Below, one piece after another: positions 46,800-51,487 of a DNA stretch of 57,992 nt. The notes under the pieces are model-generated. The model saw nothing but the letters and a program-made list of their open reading frames with translations, was not told the DNA's origin and did no database searches. Position numbers and translations under genes: made by a program. The DNA comes from Shewanella sp. SG41-4 (lineage in GTDB: Bacteria > Pseudomonadota > Gammaproteobacteria > Enterobacterales > Shewanellaceae), in the NCBI RefSeq assembly GCF_014164505.1, contig NZ_JACJFI010000005.1:1-57992 (forward strand), in the 5' to 3' direction. Position 1 is the first letter of the stretch, and each line of letters starts with the position of its first letter.

Positions 46800-47723
46800 A
46801 TGTCTGCTTATGCCAATCGTGCGATCAATGATTATCAAAGAAAGAAAAAGCTTGCTAAAGCACTTTCTGAAAATGAATACCAACTGGTACAAATGAACTC
46901 GGCTGAGTTTATCGAGCTTTATATTAGCCATAAACAAAAACAAGGTATGACTAGGACTGATGCTGTTGAGAATATAGGTATAGTTATTTCTCAGTCATCA
47001 CTGCTTGGGAAGCAATACTGGAATAAACATAATGCTAAAATAAAAACGGGCAGTGGATTGATCCCCTTGATGACAGATATAGTCGCCCTGAGTGCACTGG
47101 CTATTGAGATGAAACGAGGTGGGAGTGCCTTTAGTGCTTTTAAGACTGTGACCTATTCAGGTCAACCTTACGTTGTTTTTCAAGGGTATGCTCGTTTAAG
47201 GAGAGATTTAACCGGTACTCGTTATTTGGCTAATAATCCTAAAATAGTCTCATTAGGTATTGGAAAATTGGGTGCTTTAAAAACTATTACTAAGGGTAGT
47301 ATTCTTACCATACTGATTTCTGGTGCATTTTACTCTTTAGAGCAAATGATGAATGATACCAAAACTTGGCATCATTTTGTTGGCGGGATGGCTGTTGATA
47401 TTGCAATTGTTTCTGCTAGTTCATTGATTACTTGGGCAGCGATAGGTATCGCAGGTACAGCAGCTACATTAACTATTGGTTCAATGTTAGTAATTGTCAT
47501 CGTAGGTGTGGCTCTTGTTTTGGTGACTAATTTATTTATAGATACAGAGTATTGGTCAGATAAAATAAGTCAATCATTGTCATTAGCGGAAAAAAATCTT
47601 ATTAATAATGAGGATAAGTTGAGCGCAGATACTAATCGTTTAATCGATGATTATAATCATGACCCTATGCGTTTTTTACATAAATTATTTGGGATCCCTT
47701 ATTTTCATGGAAGCCAAAAATGA
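46800..47723 (+). CDS. Unknown protein with hydrophobic hairpin, candidate membrane-acting toxin
   Basis: This protein of 307 residues resembles nothing I recognise. Residues 1-80 are charged and helical with many Lys and Gln; 90-160 are mixed. A first hydrophobic segment is at 164-180. A long Gly/Ala/Ile/Val-rich stretch follows at about 194-246 that can form a helical hairpin, then a polar tail of 55 residues. There is no signal peptide. This plan, a soluble protein with a late hydrophobic hairpin, resembles pore-forming colicins and some type VI effectors. Its stop overlaps the start of a small membrane protein, as in toxin-immunity pairs. No secretion gene or PAAR/VgrG gene is nearby. Codon use looks more AT-rich than in the neighbouring cys genes. 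Confidence 0.55.
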   Translation: MSAYANRAINDYQRKKKLAKALSENEYQLVQMNSAEFIELYISHKQKQGMTRTDAVENIGIVISQSSLLGKQYWNKHNAKIKTGSGLIPLMTDIVALSALAIEMKRGGSAFSAFKTVTYSGQPYVVFQGYARLRRDLTGTRYLANNPKIVSLGIGKLGALKTITKGSILTILISGAFYSLEQMMNDTKTWHHFVGGMAVDIAIVSASSLITWAAIGIAGTAATLTIGSMLVIVIVGVALVLVTNLFIDTEYWSDKISQSLSLAEKNLINNEDKLSADTNRLIDDYNHDPMRFLHKLFGIPYFHGSQK

Positions 47724-48328
47724 GTGAGAAGTCAGATATTATTCACGATGAATATAGTGATAAAAAAAGGCATAAAGCCTTAGCTATATTTTTTATTATC
47801 TTATGCTTTTTAGGTGTTTATGGCACTTTTTTAGGGTTTATAGAAGAATATAGTGTTTTAGAAAAGATTAGTAAAAAGGCTATTTATATCGGGCATAGAA
47901 GCTTTGCTATTGGTGCGTTTTGGCTGGTGCCATTTTTTATCGTTTTTTCTTATTTAATGTACTTAAGATTAGTGAATAAACTGACAATTCAAGCGCAAAT
48001 TTGGCTTGTTAAAGCAGCCGGATTTGGATTAGTTGCTTGGGTTTTGACTTGTAGTGCTTATGGTTTTTGGCTTGATTCACACCTCAGAATAAATGGTTAT
48101 ACTCATTGTTACTGGTATGATTCTCCGTCTCGAGGCAGTCCAACTATTTGGGTAGAGTCGGAGCGTTTTTGCCAGAAGAGAGCTTCAAACACTCGGATTG
48201 AATTATTTAACTATTTTGACCAGCAAGATGCATTAAATCGTAAACCAACAGATAAAGAGTTAAATGCAGAGATAAAAAATATTGTTGAAAATAGTATTTT
48301 TTATAAATATCAGAATGATCTGCTTTAG
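47720..48328 (+). CDS. Three-helix membrane protein, candidate immunity protein
   Basis: The ATG overlaps the TGA of the preceding gene (ATGA), showing translational coupling. The 202-residue product has three predicted helices at about 19-41, 61-83 and 96-117, then a soluble domain likely in the periplasm. Two Cys there (130 and 151), in a GY-x2-C ... P ... C arrangement, could form a disulfide. The pattern recalls DUF1240-type membrane proteins, which I cannot confirm. Small polytopic proteins paired with a hydrophobic-hairpin toxin are the usual form of immunity to inner-membrane pores. Function is inferred from context. Confidence 0.55.
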   Translation: MSEKSDIIHDEYSDKKRHKALAIFFIILCFLGVYGTFLGFIEEYSVLEKISKKAIYIGHRSFAIGAFWLVPFFIVFSYLMYLRLVNKLTIQAQIWLVKAAGFGLVAWVLTCSAYGFWLDSHLRINGYTHCYWYDSPSRGSPTIWVESERFCQKRASNTRIELFNYFDQQDALNRKPTDKELNAEIKNIVENSIFYKYQNDLL

Positions 48329-48437: not shown

Positions 48438-49604
48438 TTACACCAATACTTGTTTGAGCACTCTTTGCCAGTTTTCACCCATAAAACGATCGCGATCGGT
48501 AGATTTGAAACGGGCTTTTTTCAAGGCATCGTCGATGCGGCTCATGCGGTCGATACTGTTGAATTCTGGGATGACTACATGCTTGGGTTCAACGTCAAAA
48601 CCTAATACATTTTTGTCTTCTAAGCTATGCCACCACTCAAGGTACTCTTTTATCCCTTCGCTATTATTGTTATCTAATGCTAATAGGTTTTCTTGACCAC
48701 GCAGTGGGAAATCATTGGCGATGGCTACGCAATCAAAGCCGCCCACTTTAGCAATATAAGCAAGTTGCTTTATGTAGTCTTCTATCGTTGGAATTGGCTT
48801 GTTGGTGAGCCAAAAACTCATCATGAACACGCCAAATACTCCGCCGTTATCGCCAATGGCACGAATAACTTCATCGGGTGAACAACGGGCATTTTTTACA
48901 ATAGCGCGCGCAGCACCATGGCTTTGCACTACAGGAGACTGGCTGGCTTTTATTGCATCAAGGGCCGTTTGGGCACTTGAGTGACTCACATCGATAAGAA
49001 TATTTTTCCGATTAAGCTCTGTTATGAGCTCGCGCCCAGCGGCGGTTAATGGAGTATTTAAACTATTTAAGCCATTATTATCTAATGCACCACCGGCATA
49101 ACGATTACCATAATGGTGTGTCAGCTGCAGTACCCGTAAACCCTGTTGATGCAAATTATCTAGTTGTTGCCATTCATTACTTAAACCGTCATTTTCAACA
49201 CAATCAGCGCCTTGAATTTGAAAAAACACCGCGGTTTGTTGCTGTGTTTTAGCTTTACTAATGTCAGTTCCTGTAAGCCCTTGTAGGTACACATCTGGAT
49301 TGGCTTTTACTGAATTAGCCGCTTGGGTGATACTGTTGATGCAGGCTTCATAAGTACGTTTATAATTTTTAGTGCCATCGGCTTGTTCAATGGTTTCAAT
49401 CGCCGAGACATCGGCGATAAAGGCGTCGAGTTTTGAGGCTTTAACATCATTGATGTCGGTCGGTAAAAACGATAAACCATCAATGTATAAACGACGTGGT
49501 TTAGCGGCCCATGCCGGAAATGAGCTTAAAGGGCTTAATAATGTGGCTGCTCCAAGGCCTTTTAAGATATGACGGCGAGTTTGGTTACAGACTTTTTGGA
49601 TCAT
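48438..49604 (-). CDS. M19 membrane dipeptidase-like protein lacking metal ligands
   Basis: This protein of 388 residues has AAGGAATA before the ATG. It has a twin-arginine-type leader (TRRHILKGLGAATLL, cut near AWA-AK). The M19 renal dipeptidase fold is recognisable: GLRVLQLTHHYGNRYAGG, LIDVSHSSAQTALDAI (His207) and SPVVQSHGAARAI (His228). However the N-terminal HxD ligands of the usual DGHND motif are replaced (DGLSF, Leu44 and Phe46), and the bridging Glu of the EGG motif is Gln130. A normal dinuclear zinc site cannot form, so it may be inactive or act otherwise. It lies 27 bases after csdE, probably cotranscribed. Confidence 0.8.
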   Translation of the reverse strand: MIQKVCNQTRRHILKGLGAATLLSPLSSFPAWAAKPRRLYIDGLSFLPTDINDVKASKLDAFIADVSAIETIEQADGTKNYKRTYEACINSITQAANSVKANPDVYLQGLTGTDISKAKTQQQTAVFFQIQGADCVENDGLSNEWQQLDNLHQQGLRVLQLTHHYGNRYAGGALDNNGLNSLNTPLTAAGRELITELNRKNILIDVSHSSAQTALDAIKASQSPVVQSHGAARAIVKNARCSPDEVIRAIGDNGGVFGVFMMSFWLTNKPIPTIEDYIKQLAYIAKVGGFDCVAIANDFPLRGQENLLALDNNNSEGIKEYLEWWHSLEDKNVLGFDVEPKHVVIPEFNSIDRMSRIDDALKKARFKSTDRDRFMGENWQRVLKQVLV

Positions 49605-49631: not shown

Positions 49632-50087
49632 TCAGGTGCCAACATCTTGTGTATAGGCAACGATGGCTTGCGCTAACGCAGTTAAACCATTGGTACGAGA
49701 TGGACTTAATTGGCCGCTTAATCCGAGATAATCAAAATACTGTTTTACATCAAATTGTTGTATTTGCACGGTGGTTTTGCCTTGGCAAGCGACCAATAAC
49801 AATCCAATTAAGCCTTTTACAATACGGGCGTCACTATCGGCCAGATAAAAATGTTGGCCATTTAGCGTGTAATGGTACAGCCATGCTTGGCTTTCACAGC
49901 CTTTAACTTGTGCATCCGCCTGTTTAAATTCTGCTGCGAGTGGCGGTAATAATTTTCCTAATAACATGATCTGACGGTATTTTTCTTGCCAGTTATTGGC
50001 TTGCTCAATGAGGTTAACGGCTTCAACTAATTCATCCGATAAAGGCGAAAATAACTGCGGTGAAGGTGTGGTGCTTGGGTTTAACAT
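49632..50087 (-). CDS. csdE: Cysteine desulfurase activator, SufE/CsdE family
   Basis: This protein of 151 residues carries the SufE signature QVKGCESQAWL with the sulfur-accepting Cys, and DSDARIVKGL, a following conserved block. It takes persulfide sulfur from the desulfurase encoded just upstream and passes it on. The pairing with csdA supports CsdE over SufE, since no sufBCD genes are near. It is 65 bases downstream of csdA. Confidence 0.88.
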   Translation of the reverse strand: MLNPSTTPSPQLFSPLSDELVEAVNLIEQANNWQEKYRQIMLLGKLLPPLAAEFKQADAQVKGCESQAWLYHYTLNGQHFYLADSDARIVKGLIGLLLVACQGKTTVQIQQFDVKQYFDYLGLSGQLSPSRTNGLTALAQAIVAYTQDVGT

Positions 50088-50152: not shown

Positions 50153-51487
50153 CTATAACAATAACTCTTTTACAGCATTAAGTGCATGAATAAATTGATC
50201 AACATCTTGCTTATTAGTATAGATGCCAATAGACGCACGGCAACAGCCGCTTAAATTAAGGCTGGTCATTAGCGGCATAGCACAATGATGGCCACAGCGA
50301 ACGGCCACAGCTTGTTGGTCGAGTAAAATCCCTACATCTTGGTGGTGTTCACCCTGTAGATTAAAAGCCACTGCACCAATATTATGGCGCAGACTAACAA
50401 CGGAGTGACTTTTATCAGAGTCGAATGTATCAGAGTCACTTTTATCAGAGTCGAATGTATCAAAGTGACTTTTATCGGCAATACCATACAACTCAATAGC
50501 GCCAAGCTGTTGCAGTTGTTGCTGTAAGTAGTGCAGCAATTGTTGTTCATGTGCGAGTATTTGCTCGCGAGGCAATTGTTGTAAAAAACGAATGGCAGCC
50601 CCTAGGCCAATGACTTCTGCGATAGCAGGCGTGCCAGCTTCAAGGCGGTTAGGCAGGGCACCAAACTCAGTCTGTTCAAAACTCACGGTTTTGATCATCT
50701 CGCCGCCAGTGAGCATTGGGGTTAATTTATCGAGCTCTGTATATCGACCATATAAAATGCCCACCCCCGTTGGTCCATACATTTTATGGCCTGAAAACAC
50801 ATAAAAATCACAATCAATTTGTTGCACATCAACGGGTAAATGGGCAATGGCTTGCGCGCCATCAACCAAGGTTAGCGCGCCAACGGCTTTGGCTTTTACT
50901 ACTAGCTCATTGACTGGGTTTAGTGTGCCTAAGGCATTTGACACATGGCATAGTGCAACCACTTTAGGCTTCAGCATTAATAGTTGATCAAAAGCGGCTA
51001 TATCCAGTTGCGCGTCAGCTGTCAGTGGGATAGGTTTTATCACCGCGCCAGTGCGCTTTGCCAGTTCTTGCCACGGAACTATATTGGCATGGTGAGCAGC
51101 AGTATCAATTAACATCACATCATCCGCTTTAATTTGCGAAGTCAGTCCGTAGGCCACCATATTGATCGATTCTGTGGTGCCGTGGGTAAAAATGATTTCG
51201 TCTTGACGCTGGGCGTGGATAAATTCAGCCACTTGTAGCCGAACCGCTTCATATTGCTGAGTTGCCCTTGCTGATAATTGATGCGCCGCACGGTGCACAT
51301 TGGCATTATTGAGTTGGTAATATTCAGTCATCGCATCAATCACCGCTTGTGGCTTTTGGCTGGTTGCTGCAGTGTCTAAGTAGCACAAAGGATGATCGCC
51401 AATAGTCTGTTTAAGCGCCGGGAATTGATCGCGTAGTGCTTGATGATCAAATAAAACGGCAGACGATAATGACGATGCAGGCTTCAT
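50153..51487 (-). CDS. csdA: Cysteine desulfurase CsdA/SufS family
   Basis: This PLP enzyme of 444 residues is longer than E. coli CsdA (401). ATSQKPQAVIDA, THGTTESINMVA, the Lys of FSGHKMYGPTGVGILYG (PLP Schiff base) and the catalytic Cys in RCGHHCAMPLM are all intact. It removes sulfur from cysteine for transfer to CsdE. A ten-residue repeat (KS-FDTFDSD units) adds about 25-30 residues between ELYGIAD and NIGAVAFNL, a surface loop next to the active-site region. The stop of reading frame is not disturbed. Confidence 0.92.
   Translation of the reverse strand: MKPASSLSSAVLFDHQALRDQFPALKQTIGDHPLCYLDTAATSQKPQAVIDAMTEYYQLNNANVHRAAHQLSARATQQYEAVRLQVAEFIHAQRQDEIIFTHGTTESINMVAYGLTSQIKADDVMLIDTAAHHANIVPWQELAKRTGAVIKPIPLTADAQLDIAAFDQLLMLKPKVVALCHVSNALGTLNPVNELVVKAKAVGALTLVDGAQAIAHLPVDVQQIDCDFYVFSGHKMYGPTGVGILYGRYTELDKLTPMLTGGEMIKTVSFEQTEFGALPNRLEAGTPAIAEVIGLGAAIRFLQQLPREQILAHEQQLLHYLQQQLQQLGAIELYGIADKSHFDTFDSDKSDSDTFDSDKSHSVVSLRHNIGAVAFNLQGEHHQDVGILLDQQAVAVRCGHHCAMPLMTSLNLSGCCRASIGIYTNKQDVDQFIHALNAVKELLL
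50404..50480. repeat. 30-base in-frame tandem repeat within csdA
   Basis: Units of 30 bases built on AGTGACTTTTATCAGAGTCG and GAATGTATC occur about two and a half times (50404-50430, 50431-50460, 50461-50475). The length is a multiple of three, so the repeat adds residues without shifting the frame. Copy number may vary between strains. Confidence 0.88.

Follow-up and report, generated by a model that had tools for sequence, protein, structure and literature searches.

Replacement of the alpha-metal ligands in M19 dipeptidase homologues of Shewanella and scattered other bacteria that retain the beta-site residues

Members of the M19 family with solved structures include human renal dipeptidase (DPEP1, 1itq), Sco3058 (3id7) and GliJ (5lwz), which presumably all carry the HxD motif and hence a two-metal site. 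Renal dipeptidases have a taste for D-residues. Inactive M19 relatives are also known, such as human DPEP3, a mammalian protein that we take to be GPI-anchored and whose metal site is presumably altered by changes different from those described below. The family further contains 2i5g, an 'amidohydrolase' of Pseudomonas aeruginosa, which we take to be PA5396; its strand 1 presumably reads DGL without HxD, and its gene is assumed to precede dgcAB. A dipeptidase gene located before dimethylglycine dehydrogenase genes is, on the same assumption, of the 2i5g type. One report places a predicted dipeptidase gene ahead of the dimethylglycine dehydrogenase genes in both Vibrio natriegens and P. aeruginosa (PMC12093977). 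In the open-access literature, no paper was found that names 2i5g, and none on the clade described here. An analogue from a different family is provided by NagA, whose barrel belongs to the same superfamily as the protein studied here (Z about 16). NagA keeps the Glu ligand and acts on a sugar phosphate. In E. coli-type NagA the alpha pair is replaced and a one-metal site is left, and the QXN motif is that of the E. coli and V. cholerae enzymes, as described in a NagA study (PMC6016474).

The window (the whole stretch of DNA that was analysed, 57,992 nucleotides from Shewanella sp. SG41-4) contains the gene of an M19-family protein, which is the sole M19 match found in its own genome (an assembly of 808 contigs). 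The protein matches Pfam PF01244 (Peptidase_M19) with an E-value of 3.2e-74 and 250.4 bits against a gathering cut-off of 26, the match beginning as late as position 27 of the 319 in the profile. Comparison with a 97% identical relative (L002) gives a dN of 0.012 versus a dS of 0.134, and in the comparisons with L010 and L014 the synonymous sites are saturated. A sequencing error or a decaying gene was considered and rejected, as the relatives agree at the key columns. Exceptions to an intact gene are found in G015, which has an internal TAG, and L037, in which the gene is split over two frames. The features of the gene, its product and its neighbours are listed in Table 1.

Table 1. Coordinates of the M19 gene, its key residues and the adjacent genes in the window. 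Residues are numbered with the initiator Met as 1.
Feature	Window position	Strand	Remark
M19-family protein, 388 aa	48438..49604	(-)	ORF with ATG start; clade within the Gln type
Twin-arginine-type leader, residues 1-34	49503..49604	(-)	TRRHILK, then hydrophobic stretch and AWA; putative cleavage place
D42-G43-L44-S45-F46, replacing DGHND	49467..49481	(-)	Alpha-metal ligands His and Asp absent; alignments
Q129-I130-Q131	49212..49220	(-)	Q131 in place of bridging Glu
H163-H164	49113..49118	(-)	H163 at renal dipeptidase H152 position
H208, beta-site His	48981..48983	(-)	Alignment
H229, beta-site His	48918..48920	(-)	Alignment
R240-C241	48882..48887	(-)	R240 at renal dipeptidase R230 position
N297-D298	48711..48716	(-)	D298 at renal dipeptidase D288 position
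CsdE/SufE-like sulfur acceptor	49632..50087	(-)	Upstream of M19 gene, gap of 27 bp to its ATG
SufS/CsdA-type cysteine desulfurase	50153..51487	(-)	Upstream of CsdE-like gene

The protein is predicted to adopt the M19 barrel fold. An AF2 model built from 29 clade sequences has a mean pLDDT of 90.2, and the 17 best rows of the VIA-align comparison are all M19 members (Z 33.8-39.1; 2i5g was assigned by sequence match), the next row being NagA at 16.4. The best match is 2i5g, with a Z of 39.1 over 314 residues at 3.1 A and 27% identity over the aligned part, followed by GliJ (37.3), 9h0b (37.2), human renal dipeptidase (36.4), PvdM (3b40, 36.2) and Sco3058 (36.0-36.1). PvdM was considered as a model; beyond the Z of 3b40 nothing is claimed for it, its sequence lying outside the ligand survey.

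The two metal sites of the family fare differently in the window protein. Neither HxD residue is present, L44 and F46 occupying their places, and Gln131 replaces the bridging Glu; the beta-site pair H208/H229, D298 and R240 are present. We take H208 and H229 to correspond to H198 and H219, the beta-site histidines of renal dipeptidase, R240 to lie at the position of R230, which presumably contacts the substrate carboxylate, D298 at that of the catalytic-type D288, and H163 at that of H152. Sco3058 and GliJ share with the window protein the beta-site His pair, the Asp, the Arg and the His at the H152 position, and differ from it in having Glu at the Gln131 position. The likeness to 2i5g extends further, comprising the Gln in place of the bridging Glu together with the beta-site His pair, Asp and Arg, whereas 2i5g has Tyr for His163, Gly for Gln129 and Asn for Cys241.

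The assignment of these columns agrees with the sequence-only reading, which had already recognised DGLSF in place of DGHND and had asked for an alignment that might reveal a misplaced motif. In separate MAFFT alignments DGLSF is aligned with the canonical DGHND in the same columns. The Glu/Gln column is confirmed by HMMER alignment of the clade profile with PDB chains, which gives Gln for 2i5g and Glu for Sco3058 and GliJ; these local alignments cover the Gln131 column onward, and the placement of strand 1 rests on MAFFT and the predicted strand at residues 41-45. That reading had correctly named a Gln at the bridging position and the two remaining histidines, each with a number one too low (Gln130, His207 and His228 for Gln131, His208 and His229). 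An ordinary two-zinc dipeptidase whose motif had merely been misplaced would fit the similarity to M19 over the whole protein. This candidate was rejected on the alignments, with which the HMMER placement of the Glu/Gln column agrees, and the sequence lacks both an HxD on the modelled strand 1 and a Glu at position 131, which leaves it a very slim chance.

The loss of the alpha ligands was surveyed in 161 distinct M19 rows, each 250 residues or longer, taken from the fetched loci (71 clade rows and 90 others), which reduction at 80% identity brought to 95 (29 and 66, respectively). Four rows were dropped before the reduction: the clade fragments L037 and L056, the HxD/Glu row L120, and L122, which has Tyr in the Glu column and is likely misaligned. 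HxD is present in 23 of the 95 rows, all 23 of which have Glu. No His is found at the HxD place in 67 rows, of which 65 have Gln, one Glu and one His at the bridging position. Both beta-site His are retained in 95/95 rows, and Asp298 and Arg240 in 94/95 each. HxD and the Glu thus co-vary while the beta residues are retained, indicating that the alpha site is lost as a whole and the beta site is preserved, which is not the pattern of decay. The remaining five rows (L097, L125, L130, L131 and L189) have the His without the Asp of HxD and all retain the Glu; they possibly represent a half-way state of alpha-site loss.

We refer to proteins with no HxD, Gln at the bridging position and a kept beta site as the Gln type; the window protein has all three features. 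In a quick-search, midpoint-rooted M19 tree, 63 of the 65 Gln rows lie behind one branch (support 85, not starred), together with L116 (Glu) and L124 (His), and two long Gln rows, L096 and L103, are placed elsewhere. Loss of HxD and Glu is common to 36 of the 66 non-clade rows of the reduced set. This set was assembled mainly from sequences resembling the window protein, as were most of the Gln-type rows in particular, so that the proportions do not reflect those in nature. A DGL-type strand 1 without HxD is also seen in 2i5g-related rows, such as L107. On the aligned sequences, the ligand replacement is the mark of a larger type within M19, for which a structure has already been solved (2i5g), and not of the window subfamily alone. 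The earlier suggestion that the ligand replacement defines a new subfamily is therefore corrected in this respect, and its other half, a clade with invariant pocket residues, holds.

This clade comprises the window protein and its orthologues, which form one group containing all 29 clade rows of the reduced set, with a support of 100 and a branch length of 1.39. In a sample of 398 genomes of the phylum, the profile scores drop from an E-value of 2.5e-156 to 4.9e-57 with nothing between. Of 129 genomes of the genus, 96 carry the clade gene; matches of any strength occur in 105, nine of which have only weak ones. Beyond the genus the clade has scattered members among Sphingomonadales, Halieaceae and acidobacterial records. 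In a class sample of 369 genomes, only the window's own genome has a clade member, and the phylum sample adds one clade genome outside the genus, G718. The clade is present in 7 of 296 genomes from the order of G718, which includes the genomes of L045, L048 and L051, and in 9 of 377 from its family (the two samples overlap); in the order of a Peristeroidobacter genome it is present in 1 of 147, that genome itself. A contig search yielded clade records in Parashewanella, Halieaceae, alphaproteobacterial and acidobacterial sequences. The plasmid search matched 345 records, all below 60% identity (23-29% for the best 20 of 345), and gave no sign of the clade.

Within the clade the replacement of the ligands is uniform, column 44 being Leu or Met in 70/70 covering rows and column 131 Gln in 71/71, and His208 and His229 are retained in 71/71. 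Several pocket residues distinguish the clade from the 66 other rows: Gln129 (71/71 versus 0/66), Cys241 (70/71, one row having RA instead of RC, versus 0/66), Asn297 (70/70, with one gap row besides, versus 0/66), Gly230 (71/71 versus 1/66) and His164 (69/71 versus 0/66). His163 is present in 71/71 clade rows versus 17/66 others, 16 of these 17 being HxD rows, and Tyr takes its position in 35 of the 36 other Gln-type rows. The stretches FMMSFWLT, YxxWW and HxxIP are clade-wide (29 rows). Judged by its sequences, the clade is a real, sharply bounded subfamily with its own pocket residues QxQ, RC and ND, and the replacement is common to it, as the proposed alignment check had asked. The clade-specific residues could be taken as new ligands, so that H164, Q129, C241 and D42 replace the alpha ligands of a hydrolase that still holds two metals. 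Three of these candidates have the required distribution, Q129, H164 and C241 being nearly or fully invariant in the clade and found in none of the 66 others. The other Gln-type rows lack HxD as well without having Q129, H164 or C241, so that the loss of HxD did not depend on these residues, and we regard such a rewired two-metal site as quite unlikely.

The N-terminus of the window protein carries the twin-arginine-type leader noted by the sequence-only reading, with a TRRHILK motif, although its score of 13.0 bits lies below the Pfam TAT_signal cut-off of 22.7. RR occurs within the first 30 residues in 87 of 89 leader rows, a set that includes duplicates from two collections and one non-clade row (L059), and four rows have a lipobox-like Cys in the leader.

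Our preferred reading, to which we give a probability of about 0.5, is that the window protein is a Tat-exported hydrolase of M19 fold that has lost the alpha site, works with one metal at the beta site and acts on a dipeptide or amide substrate bearing a carboxylate. The leader would direct export by the Tat pathway. A single metal would be held at the beta site by His208 and His229, helped by Gln131 and/or Asp298. Activation of the water would fall to Asp298 and stabilisation of the tetrahedral intermediate to His163, and the substrate, a dipeptide-like compound or an N-acyl amino acid, would have its free carboxylate bound by Arg240. The amino acid would be released in the periplasm for uptake, and in some lineages it may be cysteine-derived or a D-amino acid.

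The comparison with NagA bears on the single metal in both directions. In the NagA study, a mycobacterial enzyme with QXN is still active with a seven-fold higher Km, and the form with an AXA alpha pair is inactive (PMC6016474). The inactivity of AXA, and the difference of Leu/Phe from Gln/Asn, count against too easy a one-metal reading, as does the fact that Gln is a weak ligand. A non-catalytic binding protein, whose barrel takes up a peptide or an amino acid without cleaving it, would agree with the loss of the bridging Glu in 71/71 clade rows and of the alpha His in 70/70 covering rows, and DPEP3 (6vgo), an M19 member, aligns with a Z of 34.4. We consider such a pseudoenzyme unlikely, because Asp298, Arg240, His163, His208 and His229 are clade-invariant and a mere binder would need neither the Asp nor both metal His; in three sphingomonad genomes, moreover, the operon partners described below comprise a lyase and a symporter as well as predicted hydrolases. 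The sequence-only reading had left the choice between one or no metal and a binding role. Given the clade-wide beta-site His pair and the Asp, Arg and His at the D288, R230 and H152 positions, a metal-free protein with a binding role seems less probable to us than a catalytic one with a single metal.

In Shewanella the M19 gene lies, as the sequence-only reading stated, downstream of a desulfurase and its acceptor, although the naming of this pair as csdAE is upheld only in part. The window desulfurase scores above the cut-off of the SufS-family model TIGR01979 (524.7 versus 475.1 bits) and below that of the CsdA model (375.5 versus 493.6), and the CsdE match is just below its cut-off (122.6 of 136.4). 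Of 44 Shewanella/Parashewanella loci, 26 have the CsdE-like gene directly upstream of the M19 gene on the same strand, with a gap of 17-187 bp, and 8 more have it at a greater distance in the locus (34/44 in total). It was not found upstream in the other 10 of the 44 loci, one of which, L013, has only 724 bases of contig upstream.

Two further observations concern this region. The SufS/CsdA-type gene contains a 30-base repeat (2.5 copies, 93% matches, window 50403-50476), which coincides with an Asp/Ser-rich insert where the desulfurase Pfam match splits in two stretches; in L002 the desulfurase is shorter by 15 aa. Two overlapping ORFs of 307 and 202 aa with hydrophobic stretches are located at 46800-48328 (+), between cysC and the M19 gene. 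They have no Pfam match and are absent at the corresponding place in L002. The 307-aa ORF is matched in 9 of 60 genus genomes including its own, some as parts of longer frames, and in G122, too, the match is near the M19 gene, at a distance of about 2.4 kb. The two are perhaps a mobile pair of effector and immunity-like protein.

Outside Shewanella, 21 clade loci were examined, several on short contigs and with L056 left out. Three sphingomonad loci (L048, L058 and L258) have a common order of M19, S12-type serine hydrolase, AgcS symporter, D-cysteine-desulfhydrase-family enzyme and amidohydrolase, with a TonB receptor at one end. We take the amidohydrolase to be D-aminoacylase-like. The four partners in L058 and L258 share 51-62% identity with their counterparts in L048. 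For the lyase, the D-cysteate sulfo-lyase model gives the highest score, though one below the cut-off, and the D-cysteine-desulfhydrase-family model is passed by the lyases of L058 and L258 and not by that of L048. In L057, genes for an S9 peptidase, a sulfur-dioxygenase-like protein and TauE follow the M19 gene; the dioxygenase-like protein matches the dioxygenase portion of Blh with an E-value of 2e-113 but scores under the full-length cut-off. The IscS-like gene, beginning some 500 bases beyond TauE, is possibly a housekeeping gene. In L205 an L-serine ammonia-lyase lies 13 bp upstream of the clade gene. Counted over the 21 loci, a penicillin-amidase-like gene occurs in 3, a TonB receptor in 10, a D-cysteine-lyase-family gene in 3 and the dioxygenase/TauE pair in 1, the rest having other markers or none. 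The marker proteins were taken from the window, L048, L057, L058, L205 and L052, so that finding them again there is circular, and only L258 was found afterwards.

Another recurring setting is seen in L206, L257 and L259, in which the clade gene stands directly behind a clpB-like ORF, confirmed by Pfam in L257 and assigned by like N-termini in L206 and L259. In L257 a 2OG-Fe(II) oxygenase gene is next after the clade gene. This setting fits no sulfur story. We also considered whether sulfur is a theme of the clade as a whole and do not regard this as demonstrated, in view of the partial neighbour support, the circular markers and the clpB-like settings.

The genomes of L057 and L058 (G1147 and G1148) carry large M19 expansions, with 17 and 20 clade-profile matches at an E-value of 1e-20 or better, and some of their M19 copies lie beside S12 hydrolases or TonB receptors. 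In 32 other M19 regions of these genomes, no D-cysteine-lyase, AgcS, desulfurase, dioxygenase or TauE markers were found; an S12-type hydrolase occurs in 7, a TonB receptor in 7 and an amidohydrolase in 1, and in two of the regions (L226 and L232) even the M19 gene is below the cut-off. S12 and TonB neighbours are therefore not special to the clade, and the contrast in markers between clade loci and control regions is suggestive only, as the markers were chosen from clade loci.

The neighbours hint, unevenly, at the breakdown of cysteine or D-amino acids. Together with the preference of renal dipeptidases, they are the source of our guess at a cysteine-derived or D-amino-acid peptide as the substrate. 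The neighbours also bear on whether the M19 barrel might have been turned to a lyase, an isomerase or a metal-free transferase, with a pocket for substrate binding only. The clade-invariant FMMSFWLT, YxxWW and HxxIP stretches lie outside the usual set, and a dipeptidase gene in front of dimethylglycine dehydrogenase genes, as given in the report cited above (PMC12093977), does not obviously point to peptide use. Against such other chemistry stand the conserved beta-site residues and the hydrolases and amino-acid symporter in the operons of the three sphingomonad genomes, and we think it improbable. Extending the preferred reading of a one-metal hydrolase to the family, we would tentatively suppose, as a speculation we ourselves rate as unlikely, that a large share of the bacterial M19 'membrane dipeptidases' are enzymes with one metal or changed in some other way, and that the exported proteins of this clade act on cysteine-derived or D-cysteine-type peptides, together with desulfurases in Shewanella and with D-cysteine-family lyases in sphingomonads.

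Gln-type proteins are classed as M19 'dipeptidases' by similarity, though one half of the enzyme's defining metal site is absent from them. If a single metal suffices for their activity, M19 would stand beside NagA as a family with a reduced form of the two-metal amidohydrolase site, for which 2i5g in the PDB would be a starting point. If the Gln type does not cleave dipeptides, many genome annotations would be wrong. The neighbouring genes give a testable guess at the substrate.
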